Part shown: positions 3,243 through 55,867 of the stretch, piece after piece | How positions within the stretch are numbered: position 1 is the first letter of the stretch | Layout of the letters: every line of letters begins with the position of its first letter | DNA from: Planctomyces sp. SH-PL62 | Lineage (GTDB): Bacteria; Planctomycetota; Planctomycetia; Isosphaerales; Isosphaeraceae | Length of the DNA: 64,000 bases | Direction of reading: 5' to 3' | NCBI RefSeq assembly: GCF_001610895.1 | Contig: NZ_CP011273.1 | Location: 1,240,001 to 1,304,000 of the forward strand | Notes under the pieces: generated by a model | What the model saw: only the letters and a program-made list of their open reading frames with translations | Databases searched by the model: none | What the model was told of the DNA's origin: nothing | Position numbers and translations under genes: made by a program

Positions 3243-4950
3243 GCATCAGCGCGCTGGCGGGGTCGTCCTGGGCCGGAGTCGCGGGGATGGACATCATGCC
3301 CATACCGCCGCCCATGCCGCCGCCCATGCCGCCGCCCATGCCGCCCATGCCGCCGCCCATGCCGCCCATGCCGCCGCCCATGCCGCCGCCCATGCCGCCC
3401 ATACCGCCGCCCATGCCGCCGCCCATGCCGCCGCCGCCGCCGCCCATGATGAGGGAGATCGGGATGAGGGCGAGGTCGGCGACGGGGTAGACGCGGATCT
3501 CGGTCTGCTGGTCTTCGGACTCCTGCGACGTGATCATCAGGAAGCCGTCCTTGACCGTGTAGGTCAGGCCGATCTGGCGAAGCATCAGGCGGAGCGTGGT
3601 CTTGAGCGGGACGCCGTCGAGGTCGATCGAGACCGGGGAGGTCACGGTCTTGTCGGCTTCATTGAGGCCGATCGGATCGACGTAGATCGGGATGCCGCTG
3701 TCGGCCGGGGTCTGGGTGGCCTGCTTGACGTACTTGAGGACGTCTTCCAGCGGGGTTTCGTTGGGGAAGTTCATCGCCAGGGGCTCGTCGAGCTTGGCGA
3801 GGATCTGCTTGGTCTTGGGGTCGCGGTCGAAGACGTCGACGGCCTTGCCGTAGCGGGCGATCCGGCGCTCGGAGAGCGAGCGGAAGAGCCGGGCGTCGGG
3901 GTATTCGATGATCTTGTCGTCGGGGAAGGGGACCGCGGCGCGGGCGACGTCTTGCATCGTCAGCATGAAGCGGTATTCCTTCAGCTCCTCGAACTGCCGC
4001 TCCTGGGAGAGGAAGCCCATGGTGGTGGAGACGAACATGCCGGCGTAGGGGGCCGGGTTCTCGTCGCTGTAGGGGAGCGTCCCCTTGTGCATCAGCGCCC
4101 TGGCGTGCTGCGAGAGGAGCCGGGCGTCGTAGAAGGGGGCGGTGGCCAGGGCGATGTTCCCCATGCCGCCGTTGTAGAGGGTGTTGTAGACCCCCTCGCC
4201 CATCAGCGTGTCGAACTGCTCCATCATCGCCTTGATGGTCTCCTGGTTGGAGACCAGCTGCGACAGGCCGCGGTTGCGCTGCTCGGCGGCCGACTCGACC
4301 CGCTGGCGCTCGATCCGCTCGGCGACGATGCGTTCCTCGTCGCGGATGGTCGAGAGGTACTGGGCCTGGATGCGGCGGTCGAGGTCGTTGCGGACGGACT
4401 CGGGGACGTTCGAGGCCGACCGGACGACGTTCTGGGTCAGGCGGAGGGCGTCGAGGGCGGCTTCGGGCTGGCCGTTGCGGACCATCTCGCGGGCCGCGCT
4501 CAGGCGCTGCTCGACGTCGCTGGTGAGCTGCTGGCGGGCGATGGCGTCGTACCGTTCCGACTCCTCGAGCGTCGCCCGATTGTTGGGGCCGGCGTCCGGC
4601 GGGGCGGGGGGCGTGGGCTGCGCGGCCTCGGCGCCGGGGCCGGAGGCGGCGACGCCGGGGGCCGGCGGGGCGGGCTCCTGCAGGGCCACCTTCAGCAGCC
4701 GTTCCTGCGCCGCCCGGGCTTCGTCGAGGCCCTTGGTCGCGTCGGCGTTGCCGGGGTCGATCTCCAGCGCCTTCTGGAAGAAGGACTGCGCCATCCCGCC
4801 GGCGCCCTGCGCCAGCGCTTGCCGCCCGAGATCCGTCAGTTGGTCGGAAAGCGGCGGGGCATCGTCGCCGCGCGATGCGGCCCCGGACAGCAATACGCCG
4901 CCCAGGGTCAGCAGCCCGGCACCTTTCCACAGTCTCGCGGTTCGGGACAT
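3226..4950 (-). CDS. Secreted TPR protein with STN-like domain and Gly/Met-rich tract
   Basis: 574 aa. A signal peptide covers about residues 1-27 ('GLLTLGGVLLSGAASRG'). It is followed by one TPR-like pair ('AQSFFQKALEIDPGNADATKG'), a long helical region, and at ~385-475 a compact alpha/beta domain resembling STN/secretin short domains ('TPLEDVLKYVKQAT ... IYVDPIGLNEADKT ... SIDLDGVPLKTTLRL'). The same domain is on the tails of the sigma factors at 33153-34490 and 40514-42418. Residues ~500-550 are an almost pure Gly/Met repeat. The stop at 3226 follows immediately after the A9 run, and the -1 frame continues open to 1892, so the mature product may be ~1020 aa. It probably acts in the periplasm or at the cell surface; its role is unknown. 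Confidence 0.85.
   Translation of the reverse strand: MSRTARLWKGAGLLTLGGVLLSGAASRGDDAPPLSDQLTDLGRQALAQGAGGMAQSFFQKALEIDPGNADATKGLDEARAAQERLLKVALQEPAPPAPGVAASGPGAEAAQPTPPAPPDAGPNNRATLEESERYDAIARQQLTSDVEQRLSAAREMVRNGQPEAALDALRLTQNVVRSASNVPESVRNDLDRRIQAQYLSTIRDEERIVAERIERQRVESAAEQRNRGLSQLVSNQETIKAMMEQFDTLMGEGVYNTLYNGGMGNIALATAPFYDARLLSQHARALMHKGTLPYSDENPAPYAGMFVSTTMGFLSQERQFEELKEYRFMLTMQDVARAAVPFPDDKIIEYPDARLFRSLSERRIARYGKAVDVFDRDPKTKQILAKLDEPLAMNFPNETPLEDVLKYVKQATQTPADSGIPIYVDPIGLNEADKTVTSPVSIDLDGVPLKTTLRLMLRQIGLTYTVKDGFLMITSQESEDQQTEIRVYPVADLALIPISLIMGGGGGGMGGGMGGGMGGMGGGMGGGMGGMGGGMGGMGGGMGGGMGGGMGMMSIPATPAQDDPASALMQKKSN
3296..3450 (-). repeat. Tandem GGC/ATG repeat encoding a Gly-Gly-Gly-Met tract
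   Basis: On the + strand the unit is ccgcccatg with ccg insertions, repeated about 14 times. It encodes GGGMGG(M) units within the gene at 3226-4950. Such a tract can expand or contract by replication slippage. The regular Met spacing might bind soft metals, but nothing else in the sequence supports that. Confidence 0.85.
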
Positions 4951-5490
4951 GATCGATGCTCTCCAGCAGAAGGGATCACCGGCGCCATGACCGGTCTGGG
5001 CGCTAGGTGTTTACTCATCGCATTTGACGGAATCGCCGATGGCGCGGCGGAAGGCCGTCGCCGGGCGATCCGGATTGAACTCTGGCCGGCCCGACCGGGA
5101 TGGACGCGGGGCTCGTCGGCCCCGCGGCCGATCGCAGACCTTGGGCGTTGCTGATCCTAGGCGGTTCCTCGTATTCCCATGAGGCGGTTCGATGCTGGCT
5201 TCGTTCGGCTCGTCGTCAACCATTATGCCACACGGTTTCCGGCGCGGCCAAACCGGGGGCGGCGAATGGTCCCCGGGCCTCGCGCGACCTGCGTCCCAAC
5301 AAGACGAACGGCCTCCCGCGTTTCTTCGATCCCCCGGCCGATTTCCGGACGAGACGCCCCTTGGCGGCCCATTTTGACAAGCCGGCGGTCCCGTCCTACT
5401 AAATTGACATCCGGCGAGGATGGGACCGAGCCGGTCGCCGCCCTCCCGAACCGAGCATCGCCGTCCTCGAGGGCGGCCGGAGGTTTCCCG
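4951..5490. other. Intergenic, divergent promoter region
   Basis: 540 bp between the divergent genes starting at 4950 (minus) and 5491 (plus). It must hold promoters for both. I see no convincing sigma-70 boxes, no repeat and no credible additional gene. Open frames here lack ribosome-binding sites and protein-like composition. Confidence 0.6.
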
Positions 5491-5921
5491 ATGAGCGATA
5501 TCCAGGACGACCCCAAGCCGGGCGAGGCGAAGTTCGACTTCTCGGCCTTCCCGCCCAACACGGTTTTCCACGAGCGACGGCTCGGCAGGGAGCGGCGCGG
5601 CCCGTTCCGGGCTCGCGGCGCCGCCGACGCCCCGGCCGAACCGCGCCCCCCCGGCCCGCCGAGCGCCGGGAGAAGAAGGAACGTCGTAAGCGCATCGACC
5701 CCACGACGTTCGAGAAGCAGTACACCGACGATGAACTCGAATTCATGAACGCGATGCAGCGATTCAAGGAACTCGCCGGCAAGTCGTTCCCATCCTATGG
5801 CGAGGTGATCAAGGTCGCCGTCGGCCTCGGCTATCGCAAGTCCGTCGACGATTCGCCGCCTCCCGTCTTCGACGAGGAGGCCAGCCTCCTCCTGTTCTCC
5901 CGGATGGAACAGGACGCCTGA
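5491..5921 (+). pseudogene. Small conserved-looking hypothetical protein, frameshifted in a C7 run
   Basis: ATG at 5491 has a GGAGG 7 nt upstream. The first ~52 codons read well ('MSDIQDDPKPGEAKFDFSAF', then 'NTVFHERRLGRERRG'), after which the frame becomes Pro/Arg-rich noise. In the -1 frame from ~5655 a normal sequence appears: 'AERREKKERRKRIDPTTFE', 'QYTDDELEFMNAMQRFKEL', ending at the TGA at 5919-5921. The switch falls at or near the C7 run 5646-5652, and one extra base there restores a single protein of ~143 aa. It is cytoplasmic-looking, charged and helical. Function is unknown. Either a real frameshift or an under-called homopolymer. Confidence 0.7.
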
Positions 5922-6041
5922 GCCCGCCCCCGACAGGGTCGGCGCCCTCGACTTCGAAACGACCGACGCGGCGGACGCCGGGGAGATCCCTCGACGGCCG
6001 CCGCGTGTTCGTTCCTAGGGATGCAACCCGTCGGCGAATTC

Positions 6042-7142
6042 TCAGCGGGTCGCGGCGGTCGTGTGCGAGGCCGTAACCAGGGCCGGCCCGGTCAGGACGT
6101 TCACCCAGGCGCTGAGGGCCTCGCGGGTCAGGCGGACGGCCCGGTTCACGTCGGGCGTCACGATAGGCTCGGAGCTGACCAGGGTCGCGACGGCCGGTTC
6201 CTCCGGGGCGAACACGTCCGCCGGCAGCATCGCCAGGCCGGTCTCCTCGGCGACGGGGGCCGCATGGGCCTCGGTCCGGGGCTGGGGAGTCGCCGCGAAC
6301 GCCTCGGGGGCGGGGGCCGACTCGTCGATGAGCGGGGCCGCGAAATACAGGTCGGCGCTCTGTTCCATCGCTTCGAAGCCGGGAAGCAGGGCCGGTTCCG
6401 CAACGATCGAGGCGGGGGCTTCCGCGAAGATCGCCTCGGGGAGCGTCGAGGGCGTCGGCTCGACGATCGCCACCGACTCGGCTTCCGCGACGGGGGCGAG
6501 GTCGGCCTTGAGGGTGAAGTCGTCGTCGAAGTAGAGGTTCTCCGAGGACTCAAGGGCGGCGAAGGCCAGGGCCAGGCTTTCCCGGGCCTCGGCCTCGCGG
6601 AGTCCCTCGGCGAAGGTCTCGACCAGCCGCGTCCCGGCGGCGCCGAAGCGATCCCACGCCAGCCGGGCCAACTCGTCGGGCCGGACGACGGGGGCGACGA
6701 ACGCGTCCGGCGCGGGGGCCGTCGCCGCGACGACCGGGGCGGGAATCTTCGTCGCGACCAGATAGTCGTCGAGCTTGGGGAGGGGGAACGGGACCGCCGA
6801 CGCGACGACCTGCGAGGAGGTCCGTCCGGCGAGCATCTCGGCGCGGTGGCGGGGGGAGGTCGGATGCGGGAGCGCGATCGTCGCAACCCGAGGCGCGACC
6901 GCCGGCTCGACCGCCCGGTGGCGACGGGCGAGGCGGGCGGCGCGAGCCCGCTCCATCTCCGCCGCGAGCAGGTCATGGATCACGACGTACTGCTTCTCCT
7001 CCCCCCGCCGGACGTCCATCTCAGCGAGCCGGGCGTTCATCCACTTCTGCGTGGTGTCGACCCAGCCTTCAATCTTGGGCCAGGCGGGAAGACCCAGCCC
7101 CAATCCCGCCACCAGACTGACCAAGACAAGCCGCAGCGTCAT
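6042..7142 (-). CDS. Membrane-anchored Ala/Pro-rich hypothetical protein
   Basis: 366 aa from ATG at 7142, preferred over ATGs 30 and 48 bases upstream because a GGAG motif precedes it by 8 nt and the protein then opens with a hydrophobic segment ('LRLVLVSLVAGLGLGLPAW'). This is either a signal anchor or a signal peptide. Next comes a charged helical stretch ('KQYVVIHDLLAAEMERARA'). The rest is acidic, Ala/Pro-rich and low in predicted structure, with recurring short motifs such as 'SSENLYFDDDF' and 'QSADLYFAAPL'. I recognise no family. It is probably a cell-envelope protein. It has no operon partner: the next gene (7493) is divergent. Confidence 0.75.
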   Translation of the reverse strand: MTLRLVLVSLVAGLGLGLPAWPKIEGWVDTTQKWMNARLAEMDVRRGEEKQYVVIHDLLAAEMERARAARLARRHRAVEPAVAPRVATIALPHPTSPRHRAEMLAGRTSSQVVASAVPFPLPKLDDYLVATKIPAPVVAATAPAPDAFVAPVVRPDELARLAWDRFGAAGTRLVETFAEGLREAEARESLALAFAALESSENLYFDDDFTLKADLAPVAEAESVAIVEPTPSTLPEAIFAEAPASIVAEPALLPGFEAMEQSADLYFAAPLIDESAPAPEAFAATPQPRTEAHAAPVAEETGLAMLPADVFAPEEPAVATLVSSEPIVTPDVNRAVRLTREALSAWVNVLTGPALVTASHTTAATR

Positions 7143-7492
7143 CGGTCTATCTCCGGATCGTGTCGGATTCATCGTGTTCCGCTCTTCCATGCCAGTTCGG
7201 ATGCAAGCGAGTGGGGTTTCCTCTTGGCTTCTTGTTAAACAGTATCGACGGGGCTCCTCGGTTGCTTTACGGAGTATCGAGAAAATGAGTGCTTTGGGAG
7301 TCGTGCGGCCTTCTTGATGAACAGGGGGTTGGGGTTGTCAGGGTGGTTGGGTTGGTCGCCTTCCGGTTTGGCGGGAGGGATTGCGCCCGGGTTCGCGTGG
7401 TCAAGACGGGCGGAACGCTCTAAGATTGGCCCCATTCGCGTGTTCGAAAATCTTCCCCGGCGGGGCCGGGGGCGTCGTGGAGTGCGTAAGAC
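7143..7492. other. Intergenic, divergent promoter region
   Basis: 350 bp between the divergent genes at 7142 (minus) and 7493 (plus). It is slightly lower in GC than its neighbours. I see no repeat, hairpin terminator or extra gene in it. Confidence 0.6.
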
Positions 7493-8476
7493 ATGGGCAA
7501 GGCGGTCCTGGTCACCGGGGCGGGGGGGTTCATCGGCAGCCATTTGACGGAACGCCTGGTGCGTCTGGGACATCGCGTCCGCGCGCTGGTGCGTTACAAC
7601 GGCCGGGACGATCGGGGCCATCTCGACGACCTGCCGCGGGACGTGCAGTCCGAGATCGAGGTGCATCGGGGCGATTTGAAGGACTCCGACGCCGTTTTCC
7701 GGGCCGTCGAGGGCCGCGAGCAGGTGTTCCACCTCGGTGCCCTGATCGCGATCCCGTACTCGTACCAGAACCCGTACGACGTGGTTCAGACCAACGTCAA
7801 CGGCACCGCGCACGTCCTGGACGCCTGCCGGCGGTCGACGACGCTGGAGCGGGTGGTGCTGACCTCGACTTCGGAGGTCTACGGCACGGCCCGGTACGTG
7901 CCGATCGACGAGAAGCACCCTCTGTGCGGGCAGTCGCCCTACGCGGCGACCAAGATCGCCTCGGACGCACTCGGCGAGAGCTATTTCCGCTCGTTCGAGA
8001 CCCCGGTCTCGGTCCTCCGGCCGTTCAACACGTTCGGCCCCCGCCAGTCGGCCCGCGCGATCATCCCCACGATCATCAGCCAGGCGCTGAGCCGTCCCGT
8101 GGTGAAGCTCGGCCGGCTCGACCCCCGTCGCGACCTGACCTACGTCAAGGACACCGCCGAGGCGTTCGTGGCGGTCGCCTCGTGCGACGCGGCCCTCGGC
8201 CGGGTGGTGAACGTGGGGAGGGGCTCGGACGTGAGCATCGGCGACCTCGTCGAGAAGATCGGCGCGATCCTCGGCCGGACCCTGGAGGTCGAGACCCAAT
8301 CGGACCGTCTCCGCCCCGCCGCCAGCGAGGTCGAGCGGCTGCTCGCCGGTACCGCGCTGGCGCAGCAGCTCTGGGACTGGCGGCCCCGCTACAGCCTGGA
8401 AGACGGCCTGGCCGAGACCGTGGACTGGATCCGCGACCACCTCGACCGCTTCCGCCCCGACGTCTACACGACCTGA
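7493..8476 (+). CDS. NAD-dependent sugar dehydratase, SDR family, LegB-like
   Basis: 327 aa, extended short-chain dehydrogenase/reductase. The NAD-binding glycine motif is near the N-terminus ('VLVTGAGGFIGSHL'), and the catalytic Tyr-Lys pair is in 'SPYAATKIASD' with the upstream Ser/Thr in 'LTSTSEVYGTARY'. The run 'LIAIPYSYQNPY', 'RPFNTFGPRQSARAIIPTI' and 'RRDLTYVKDT' matches the LegB-type 4,6-dehydratases that act on nucleotide-linked amino sugars in legionaminic-acid-type pathways. The substrate here is inference. No other nonulosonic-acid genes are next to it, and it is followed by a DHH phosphoesterase 56 bp downstream on the same strand. ATG 7493 has a GGAG upstream. Confidence 0.9.
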   Translation: MGKAVLVTGAGGFIGSHLTERLVRLGHRVRALVRYNGRDDRGHLDDLPRDVQSEIEVHRGDLKDSDAVFRAVEGREQVFHLGALIAIPYSYQNPYDVVQTNVNGTAHVLDACRRSTTLERVVLTSTSEVYGTARYVPIDEKHPLCGQSPYAATKIASDALGESYFRSFETPVSVLRPFNTFGPRQSARAIIPTIISQALSRPVVKLGRLDPRRDLTYVKDTAEAFVAVASCDAALGRVVNVGRGSDVSIGDLVEKIGAILGRTLEVETQSDRLRPAASEVERLLAGTALAQQLWDWRPRYSLEDGLAETVDWIRDHLDRFRPDVYTT

Positions 8477-53064: not shown

Positions 53065-53789
53065 CGTGGGATTCCGTGGGTTCCAGCAGGCCGAAGGGGC
53101 GAACGAGCCGCCCGACGAGGGACGGCGAGACGCCCCGCCGCTCACCCCCGCTCCTGCCTGCGAGGCTACCCCACCGCCAGCCACGTCGCCAGGCCCTACC
53201 CCAGGCGGGATGCGTCGCCCCCGAAGGTTCGACGGATCCCCCGGCCGCCAAGAAGCCAGTCGCTCCTCGAGTCGGCCCCGACTCCTCCTCACCCTTCCCA
53301 ACAACCCCCAACCCTCGACCGCCCCCGATCCCGCCCGCGCTCCCGGAGTTGCGGGTTGCCTGGCTTGGATGCCCGGCAAATTGAACCGGCTCCGCGCCCC
53401 CCTCGCGCCGGCTCCCCGACTTCTCCAGACCATCCTTCTCAGGCGCCTGGCCCGCTCCGACCTCCTGATCTCGTCGGTGATCATGGATCGCATCGCGGTC
53501 GGCTCCAAACCGGTCGTCGATCCGCCCTGAAGTCCTGAAGCATCTCTTCGAGATCTTCGACCGTCTCGAAAACGCTCGTTTTTGAGATCATCCGTCGAGG
53601 GATGGGCGTTCGTCTTCGCGTGGCCCAGTCGCCGGACCTCGGGATTGTTGGGCACGCCGACCATGCCGAATAGGTATCGCATGCGTCGTCCGTATCGACG
53701 GATGAGAGTACGGCTTTCGCAAAGCCAACGGCCGTGTCGAGTAGGCCGGACACAAGCTGGCAGCTAGCCGAGCCCGCGACGTCGGGGTT
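53065..53789. other. Gene-poor intergenic stretch, with palindrome copy 1
   Basis: 725 bp. The first part (53065-53540) is Pro/Arg-coding noise in all frames with no ribosome-binding site. From 53540 the GC falls and a 26-bp palindrome copy (53563-53588) appears. A minus-strand open frame at 53481-53753 (90 codons, containing 'ISKTSVFETVEDLEEMLQD') spans the palindrome but has no start signal. It may be a remnant, but I do not call it a gene. Confidence 0.5.
53563..53588. repeat. Palindrome GTCTCAAAAACG-CT-CGTTTTTGAGAC, copy 1
   Basis: gtctcgaaaacg ct cgtttttgagat, a 26-bp near-palindrome (10 of 12 pairs), located 202 bp downstream of the Imm8-like gene. It is one of three copies bracketing the island. 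Confidence 0.8.
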
Positions 53790-54152
53790 CTAAACGGCGC
53801 TCATACCCTCGTATTCCCAGTCCAATCGGTGCCGCAATTGTTGCACTATCGCTTCCCAATTCGGCCCTGTTACGGACGACACATAGTTACGCAAAACACG
53901 GTCAATACTCTCCGGCTCGAACGATTCGACGATGAATCCCCGAAAGGTTCGCTCCCCCCGAGCCCTCGCGTGCGAAGCCATAGACGGCGTGGACACGTTC
54001 GCCTGGAACATCTCGGAGCCTGGCTCTGCCTCGGGGCCGATGTCCAGCGTGAAGCAGCCGTGTCCATCCTGCGGCTGAGTTCGGTCCGCCGAGACGAACG
54101 CGTCCCAGTCGAGAAAGTCGTTCGGCTGGATTCCTTTCAGTTCAGCTCTCAT
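53790..54152 (-). CDS. Imm8-like immunity protein
   Basis: 120 aa from ATG 54152 (an ATG four codons upstream at 54164 is also possible; neither has a good Shine-Dalgarno). The pattern fits immunity protein 8: 'RAELKGIQPNDFLDWDAF', 'FTLDIGPEAEPGSEMFQA' (IGP...G-E-F), 'NVSTPSMASHA' (TP), 'RGFIVESFEPESIDRVLR', and the ending 'NWEAIVQQLRHRLDWEYEG' (W-E). Family members neutralise polymorphic toxins delivered to rivals. No toxin gene is seen in the window, so it is either an orphan immunity gene or protection against neighbours' toxins. GC and codon use are lower in GC than surrounding genes, suggesting acquisition. Confidence 0.8.
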   Translation of the reverse strand: MRAELKGIQPNDFLDWDAFVSADRTQPQDGHGCFTLDIGPEAEPGSEMFQANVSTPSMASHARARGERTFRGFIVESFEPESIDRVLRNYVSSVTGPNWEAIVQQLRHRLDWEYEGMSAV

Positions 54153-54164
54153 GCCGTATTGCAT

Positions 54165-54529
54165 CCAAGCTCAGCAGGCCGGCCCGCCGAGTGGTATCTC
54201 GATGATACCCGAGGAGTCGGCCCAATGATTGGCTCCCGACCGCCGTGCCAGCGAAGCTCTACCTCAAATGCCACCGCCGCGGTTGGTCGCAACGGTCCGG
54301 GTCGGCCCTGTCCCTACCCCAGCCCCTAGGTCCAAGGATGCGCCCTCGGACTCTGTCTCAAAAACGCTCGTTTTTGAGACGGGGCCAACGGCCTCGCAAG
54401 GGTCGCCAATCGTGCCACATAGGGTGTCGCCCGGAGCAGCCATATGCACATAAGAGAATGGACTTCCGCGGAGGGCACAGGGCATGTCGGGTAGGCTAGT
54501 CGCTAGTTGGCTGGATAAGGTCGGGCGAA
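54165..54529. other. Spacer between the two island genes
   Basis: 365 bp of lower-GC DNA containing palindrome copy 2. No gene with a ribosome-binding site is seen. A minus-strand frame read through here is only the frameshifted extension of the DUF7691-like gene. Confidence 0.55.
54355..54380. repeat. Palindrome copy 2, perfect
   Basis: GTCTCAAAAACG (54355-54366), CT, CGTTTTTGAGAC (54369-54380): a perfect 12-bp stem with a 2-nt centre. It lies between the two island genes, 150 bp downstream of the DUF7691-like gene. Confidence 0.9.
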
Positions 54530-55085
54530 TCAACCATTGGCGACAGTGACGAATGCCTTCCCATGATCCAACGCCCACTTCAACTGGTAGACGAGAGTCT
54601 GTCGCCCTTCTTCGATGCTCGGATCGTCGTGAGATAGATCCACATCGGAGAGCCGCTTGTACTCGTCGGCTACCTGCGGGGGGGGTGAGGAATCGCACAT
54701 AGGGGGTGTCGCCCCAGGCGGGCACGGGCAGCGGCAACTGGCCGTTGAGCAGGGGCGAATCGATCTCCAGGTCTTCCGGGTCGCCAACCTCGTCGAAGTC
54801 GTCTTCCGGGACGGGGATGACCTCTCCGAAGTACTCGGACAGGATATCGATGGCGTAGCCGTAGAGGAAGCGTGACCGCTCGGGGGCTCGGCAGTCTCCG
54901 TCGATGAGGTCGGCCAAGGCTTGCCGTAAGGAATAGCTCGGCGGCTCGTCTTCCTGGAGGTCGAACGACTCGATCGTGCTGGCGGCTGCCTCGACGATCC
55001 TCCCTAGCAAGTCGCCGTCTCGGGAGCCGAACGCGGCCCGCATAAGGTCGAGGTCTACGGCATAGGCAGTACCGTTGATCGCCAT
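54530..55085 (-). pseudogene. DUF7691-like protein, frameshifted in a C8 run
   Basis: ATG 55085 has AGGAGAG at 8 nt. The first ~133 codons read well: 'MAINGTAYAVDLDLMRAAFG', 'LRQALADLIDGDCRAPE', 'RFLYGYAIDILSEYFGEVI', 'DTPYVRFLTPP'. At the C8 run (plus-strand G8, 54678-54685) the correct continuation moves to another frame: 'QVADEYKRLSDVDLSHDDP', 'LVYQLKWALDHGKAFVTVA', ending at 54530. A C7 run would restore one protein of ~184 aa. The N-terminal pattern resembles the DUF7691 family of unknown function, which I place with moderate certainty. It is paired with the Imm8-like gene on the same strand and lies in the same lower-GC island. Confidence 0.7.
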
Positions 55086-55091
55086 AGTCAT

Positions 55092-55867
55092 CTCTCCTAC
55101 CGAGCGGGGATTCTCCGTTTCGCTCGAATATCCTACAAGCCACCAACCACGGATGGAACACGCCCCCGTTGGGTCGTTCGGACGTGGCTTTTGACACTGC
55201 CATCATGGATATACCCCAAGCGGCACGAGGTCGATACCCCCCTCGTGGCGACCGGCTTGACCGTCTCAAAAACGCCCGTTTCTGGGACGCCTGGGAAAGA
55301 GACCGCGAGACCAGGCACGCAGGGCCGAAATCCGTCCCGATAATCGTCCCACAATCAGCGTCTCGAAACCTTGCCAGTCCGGTTGAGTTATGAGACGAAT
55401 CCTCGGTGCCTGCGACGTGGAGCGCCATGCCGATCGGGGGCGCCCGAGTCTCGACCCAGGAATAGAACCTAGGAATAGGCTTTGGTGGCCCTGCACTTTG
55501 GTCGGGTCGGTTTGGACGAGGCAGATGGGGGTTGGACGGTGACTCGGAAAGGAAAGATCGAAGGCTCTCTGTCGGAGGCATCGACCCCCGGAGTCCGGCC
55601 TGGGCATGGCCAGGTCGACGAGGGGCGGGTGGGCTCCCTCGGCGCGCGGGGAAACGGGGGCCGCGTCCGAGCGAAAAGCGTGGCGGGTCGGGCTGAGAGC
55701 GTCGGTGTTCGAACCGGCCGGGGGCTCGAAGTGGGCGTGGGGGTGGGGGTCTTGGCTTGCCCCACGGCACGGATTCAGGCCGCTTGTGGACGTCGGAACG
55801 GCTCGGGTATGATCCCGGTTGGCGGTGGATGGCTGCGTCGCGACCTGAGTCGAGTCGAGGAGGCGTC
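55092..55867. other. Intergenic stretch with palindrome copy 3, no gene seen
   Basis: 776 bp between the divergent DUF7691-like and FHA genes. The first half has the low GC of the island and palindrome copy 3. The second half returns to high GC, with G-rich simple sequence near 55730-55760 (gtgggcgtgggggtggggg). Open frames here have no start signals and read as low complexity. Confidence 0.55.
55263..55288. repeat. Palindrome copy 3, diverged
   Basis: gtctcaaaaacg cc cgtttctgggac, pairing at 10 of 12 positions, about 175 bp upstream of the DUF7691-like gene. The three copies are spaced 792 and 908 bp apart. Confidence 0.75.

Follow-up and report, generated by a model that had tools for sequence, protein, structure and literature searches.

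What is the palindrome that stands three times around two small genes in Planctomyces sp. SH-PL62, a soil planctomycete that probably belongs to the genus Paludisphaera, and how did these genes come to lie between its copies? We address this question for the window, a stretch of 64,000 nucleotides (NZ_CP011273.1, positions 1,240,001 to 1,304,000), starting from its sequence and extending the comparison to related genomes, to Tn3-family elements and to bacteria beyond the Planctomycetota. The features of the locus are collected in Table 1.

Three palindromes in an acquired island

An initial annotation of the window had described a lower-GC island in which an Imm8-like and a DUF7691-like gene each have a palindrome on both sides. 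This description held, as both genes match the respective Pfam families and GC inside the island is ~0.59–0.63, compared to 0.66–0.74 in the surroundings. The three palindromes have 2, 0 and 2 mismatches, in window order, and are spaced 792 and 908 bp apart. Dinucleotide-preserving shuffles gave an expectation of 0 such palindromes, and a scan of the entire genome (6.78 Mb) detected only these three copies at ≤3 mismatches, showing that the palindromes are real, non-random and confined to the island; a genome-wide scatter without any link to such genes was not seen.

Table 1 Features of the palindrome island (window coordinates; a dot marks features listed without a strand)
Feature	Position	Strand	Details
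Acquired island: candidate cassettes, res platform and tnpR remnant	53200..55777	.	Approximate ends, from synteny
Distal site I copy	53563..53588	+	Central CT, GTCTCGAAAACG-CT-CGTTTTTGAGAT
Imm8-family gene, cargo of outer candidate cassette (CT...CT)	53790..54164	-	Pfam PF15586, E 3.9e-15
Imm8 cassette 5' end module	54329..54354	.	Homology at -26..0 from site with L041, L044
Middle site I copy	54355..54380	+	Central CT, perfect palindrome
DUF7691 cassette 3' end module	54381..54512	.	Common to L047 (74%) and L045; homology begins at site edge
DUF7691-family gene, cargo of inner candidate cassette (CT...CC)	54530..55091	-	Pfam PF24740, E 4.3e-15
DUF7691 cassette 5' end module	55210..55262	.	Common to L045, 79.7% over -53..0 from site
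Proximal site I (platform site)	55263..55288	+	Central CC, right arm degenerate
Accessory part of res with GTCTCGAAA-type repeats; subsites II/III putative	55289..55402	+	Alignment; like Comamonas L020 and Tn3 element L114
Serine resolvase (tnpR) start remnant, MPIGGARVSTQE*	55427..55465	+	12 codons; 11/17 residues match L052

The three copies are not equivalent: the left two share a CT centre, while the rightmost combines a CC centre with a degenerate right arm and is followed by ~115 bp of conserved sequence. All three central dinucleotides are read on the same strand. Nor is the island fixed and identical across relatives, since it is missing at the syntenic locus of three of them. In one (G029), the equivalents of window positions 53199 and 55778 are only 70 bp apart, compared to ~2.6 kb in the window, and in two others (G030 and G028) the flanking matches at the same locus are separated by 193–447 bp. 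No copy of the Imm8 gene was found in the five congeners searched.

The DUF7691 reading frame appears broken at a run of eight G (54678–54685), through either a true mutation or a sequencing error, and its C-terminal part goes on in another frame to position 54530. A repeat, CACATAGGG(G)TGTCGCC, occurs at 54416–54427 and 54696–54707. Part of the gene is thus echoed in the 3' tail of its own cassette, and, judged by sequence, this tail is perhaps the leftover of an earlier DUF7691 copy.

The palindrome and the res region of Tn3-family transposons

Scanning genome contigs, we found the exact palindrome in unrelated bacteria as well. At nine non-planctomycete loci, a small serine recombinase gene starts 63–466 bp from the exact palindrome and reads away from it, and the GTCTCGAAATC / GTCTCG repeats of the conserved 115 bp of the window are also present in the intervening sequence of Comamonas (L020). 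Because this order of site, repeats and recombinase reproduces the anatomy of a resolvase locus, with site I, subsites II and III and then tnpR, the palindrome is, by its sequence context, the crossover site I (12+2+12 bp) of a Tn3-type res region, and not a terminator. As in Tn3-family res, site I is joined by accessory sequence, window positions 55263–55402 aligning with the res regions of L020 and of a Tn3-family transposon (L114); the assignment of subsites II and III in the window is putative. Intact TnpA and TnpR are absent from the window, where just the 12-codon start of tnpR is left. This stub is weak when taken alone (tblastn E 0.1); its position matches that of tnpR at three further loci (L089, L090 and L103), and in two other genomes (G001 and G002) longer decayed copies of tnpR occupy the same place.

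This anatomy bears on the suggestion, also made initially, that the palindromes might be transcription terminators. Bidirectional terminators, or RNA hairpins of another kind at the ends of genes, would agree with the intergenic position of the sites and with the stem that they could form; however, no T tract follows the stem, a terminator scan made no call, the sites are found on the 5' side of genes and not just on the 3' side, only three copies exist in 6.8 Mb, and in unrelated bacteria the sites are upstream of serine recombinase genes. We regard this explanation as highly unlikely. Palindromic ends of the IS200/IS605 type were dropped as a candidate once the palindrome was found beside serine recombinases. 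In a Fibrimonadaceae metagenome-assembled genome, two near-identical copies of the palindrome lie 82 bp apart (L017:998–1105), with no recombinase detected nearby.

The format of the sites also speaks to a second alternative, a classical integron or an array of XerC/D (pdif) modules worked by a tyrosine recombinase. Such systems share the logic of genes that stand between directly repeated recombination sites, but the sites are 12+2+12 palindromes next to serine recombinases and res subsites, and the Paludisphaera genomes searched gave no integron integrase (TIGR02249) hit above cut-off. A centre of two bases agrees with serine rather than tyrosine recombinases, and the dif format is 11+6+11. 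On inspection, the sites are near-perfect palindromes without the R and L box pattern of attC. No IntI gene was found beside an array, TIGR02249 exceeding its cut-off only in G001, distant from the array. Together, this leaves a tyrosine-recombinase array with very little probability. The G001 hit is itself a true integron integrase of an Isosphaeraceae genome (G001:C1:4625479–4626441), far from the res-site unit of that genome.

Among 45 Isosphaeraceae genomes, seven contain matches to the palindrome, with 14 in G031, seven in G029 and none in three other congeners. A sample of 392 Planctomycetota genomes yielded only the genome studied here and one weak half-match; within the sampled Planctomycetota, the palindrome is thus restricted to Isosphaeraceae. 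Viral contigs held no palindrome, and carriage by phages or other viruses was dropped.

Empty and loaded elements and their junctions

In Isosphaeraceae, 14 loci share the layout site I(CT)-gene-site I(CC)-res, with different genes. Central dinucleotides are CT/CC in 13 of these 14 units and TT/CC in one. When placed in a common orientation, both arms are conserved in CT copies, whereas CC copies have a conserved left and a variable right arm, and the ~115-bp conserved sequence is found 3' of the right (CC) copy in 12 loci. CT sites differ from their consensus by ~4% mismatch, compared to a difference of ~20% or more in homologous flanks. Arrays with two CT sites occur in the window and at two further loci (L038 and L040). 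The same sites around different genes in relatives support the earlier proposal that the palindromes are recombination sites between cassettes, while the accompanying idea of an immunity-gene array failed, as cargo elsewhere is varied: a DUF1697 protein, a carboxylesterase, an amidohydrolase, a SulP-like protein, kinase/sigma-factor genes and small proteins of no known kind. At many sites, including L038:17793, L045, L046 and L114, a motif close to AAAGGGRRTTATCYYYGGCAAA lies in gene orientation between the site and the cargo gene, a possible promoter or operator carried by the cassettes.

Identified cargo genes have their 5' end on the CC side and read toward CT, with the exception of L049 (G002:C2, ~4684–8100), where a cassette unit between CC-type and CT-type sites stands in reverse orientation to res and to a decayed tnpR, next to a Tn3 inverted repeat (IR). 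Such an inverted cassette is what a phase switch of the Hin/Gin type, working by an invertible segment, could produce, and the 12+2+12 format resembles hix and gix sites. The orientation of the central dinucleotides is, however, uniform within each array, which favours deletion or insertion; cargo moreover varies from locus to locus, and inverted crossover sites were not found in the window. A phase switch is accordingly very improbable.

Using a sequence model of the res-like region, we searched the family for further platforms. The model found more of them outside its training set, three with an intact recombinase; Tn3 elements with tnpA were among those with intact recombinases. One locus (L114, G013:C626) is an apparently complete Tn3-family transposon with 39-bp IRs at 97%, res, and intact tnpA (PF01526, E 1.3e-147) and tnpR genes. 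Its passenger, a methyltransferase gene with its 5' end toward res, lies between two site I copies, since a site-I-like sequence, GTCCCGATTCGG-AG-GGTTTTCGGGAC, sits 8 bp inside the far IR; this outer site is only ~15/24 identical to the consensus, and the two centres are again unlike (AG/TG). A mini-element (L050) shows the order IR-8bp-CT-amidohydrolase-CC-res-IR, and three empty mini-elements (L121, L122 and L123) the order IR-7bp-one site I-res. One of these resides in the genome studied here (L122, G000:C1:5462248–5462975; L122:7248–7975) and contains IRs, one decayed site I and res without a recombinase. Compared with empty elements, loaded ones thus contain a gene and a further site I in addition, as expected from the insertion of a circle with one site. 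No clear target-site duplications were observed at L050 or L114. Tn3 IRs (~38 bp), present at these two loci, were found neither at the window nor at most Paludisphaera arrays.

All-against-all comparison of the flanks gave 19 pairs with homology on the left only, 22 on the right only and one on both sides. In an independent score of 100-bp flanks, in which pairs above the 99.9% level of random stretches were counted, 41 pairs were one-sided (8 left, 33 right) and one was two-sided, with ~0.4 expected per side. The modules of the window behave alike: the DUF7691 cassette resembles L045 at both ends and L047 at its 3' end, and the Imm8 cassette shares its 5' end with L041 and L044, whose cassettes carry other genes. 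A 2.2-kb block (79%) stops at the site and adjoins the CC copy in L036 and the CT copy in L038. As in integrons, genes plus sites form a series joined at the site, with junctions that stop at site I and tandem arrays.

These junctions could also arise in an ordinary Tn3 passenger module, in which genes beside res site I are swapped between transposons by rare site I recombination or by homologous recombination via res. The outer site I would then be an ancestral repeat near the IR instead of a part of the cassette, and there would be no cassette cycle, a situation comparable to Tn3 toxin-antitoxin modules. Exchange of one flank at res site I has been described (PMC7157771), the elements derive from Tn3, and the genomes with most copies have no cognate resolvase left, all in agreement with this explanation. 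Yet empty elements have one site I and loaded ones two, arrays with two CT sites exist, and one cargo block adjoins CC in one array and CT in another. In addition, no convincing second site was seen in a control set of other planctomycete recombinase loci in which tnpR has a palindrome nearby. An ordinary passenger module is therefore unlikely, although we give it more weight than the other alternatives.

A possible resolvase cassette system and its known counterparts

We consider it probable that the Imm8 and DUF7691 genes are resolvase cassettes on a decayed and now orphaned Tn3 res platform, a serine-recombinase analogue of the integron. At the level of sequence comparison, this is supported by the identity of the site, the res region, the tnpR remnant, the empty and loaded forms, the junctions at site I and the absence of the island in relatives. 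From these we infer that a resolvase made the insertions, via a circular intermediate. The ancestral element would have had the order IR - site I - res - tnpR - tnpA - IR, and a circular cassette with one site I would have recombined with the platform site I, leaving the inserted gene with a site I on each side and with its 5' end facing res. The tandem array CT-Imm8-CT-DUF7691-CC-res would then have formed when a further cassette entered at the outer site.

Serine recombinases join sites whose central dinucleotides match. The outer Imm8 cassette (CT/CT) may thus still be excisable, while the inner DUF7691 cassette is predicted to be locked because its overlap dinucleotides, CT and CC, are unmatched. 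Several observations run counter to the scheme: the distal and proximal dinucleotides differ, which recombination of matched sites alone would not yield, the cassette of L049 is inverted relative to res, the outer site of L114 departs strongly from the consensus, and clear target-site duplications are missing at L050 and L114. The constant CT/CC pair might be explained if the first insertion joined sites with unlike centres and replication of one strand then fixed the product, later cassettes moving by CT × CT exchange.

Ordinary Tn3 resolvases require full res sites on one molecule, and the CT copies are without subsites II and III. Since, in addition, no intact tnpR is near and no IRs are found at the window, the system may be inactive today, although the CT sites have stayed far better conserved than the homologous flanks. 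With the local tnpR destroyed, any present activity would depend on a resolvase supplied from another source. No intact tnpR was found beside any Paludisphaera array, and the two genomes with most cassettes (G029 and G031) contain no close tnpR homologue. A resolvase encoded elsewhere in the genome studied here (G000:C1:5693913), 59% identical to the TnpR of L114, lacks a 12+2+12 palindrome in the 420 bp upstream of it, and no link to the sites could thus be demonstrated.

A broader interpretation is that Tn3 resolvase and res have become a gene-capture platform, so that the integron would have been invented twice independently; site I copies would serve as cassette sites, and their central dinucleotide as an address code in which CT marks mobile cassettes and CC the locked innermost one. 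We put this forward tentatively, as a possibility in which we have distinctly less confidence than in the cassettes themselves. Integrons and dif modules, the best-known shufflers of single-gene cassettes, rely on tyrosine recombinases; testing a serine-recombinase counterpart would take one recombinase and two 26-bp sites, and a second site I 7–8 bp inside an IR offers a signature for searches.

Several known systems share parts of this arrangement. TIMEs are non-autonomous Tn3 mini-elements with IRs and res (PMC4133298, PMC13367494), a kind that the empty mini-elements L121–L123 fit. In TIME-COMPs, genes are carried between two whole TIMEs (PMC13367494), whereas here a single element encloses the cargo, with a site I copy on either side of it; each unit has one res, the second site I is without res, and IRs are absent in most loci. 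The dif (pdif) modules of Acinetobacter likewise place small acquired genes, including toxin-antitoxin genes, between shuffling recombination sites (PMC6449649, PMC13141974), but with XerC/XerD tyrosine recombinases, dif sites and no res platform.

The likeness to integrons and orphan attC clusters extends to a platform site that has accessory sites and lies next to a recombinase reading away, one-site cassettes, cargo with its 5' end toward the platform and orphan arrays. Integrons (IntI, attI, attC), in contrast, use a tyrosine integrase and folded attC sites, as opposed to a small serine resolvase and a double-stranded 12+2+12 palindrome.

Toxin-antitoxin modules of Tn3 transposons adjoin res site I, which is also where they are exchanged (PMC7157771). 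These genes abutting res site I are the closest precedent: in both cases cargo stands against the res site I of a Tn3 resolvase and the exchange breakpoint is at site I. Cargo here differs in having site I on both sides, in perhaps being tandem, in being far more varied and in mostly lacking tnpA and tnpR. In the papers searched, neither genes enclosed by two site I copies nor resolvase-site cassettes were described, an absence that is not proof. Because toxin-antitoxin modules are the precedent and boxing by two sites was not found described, we place the system with the Tn3 res-site passenger modules, as a variant that works like an integron without membership of the integron family.
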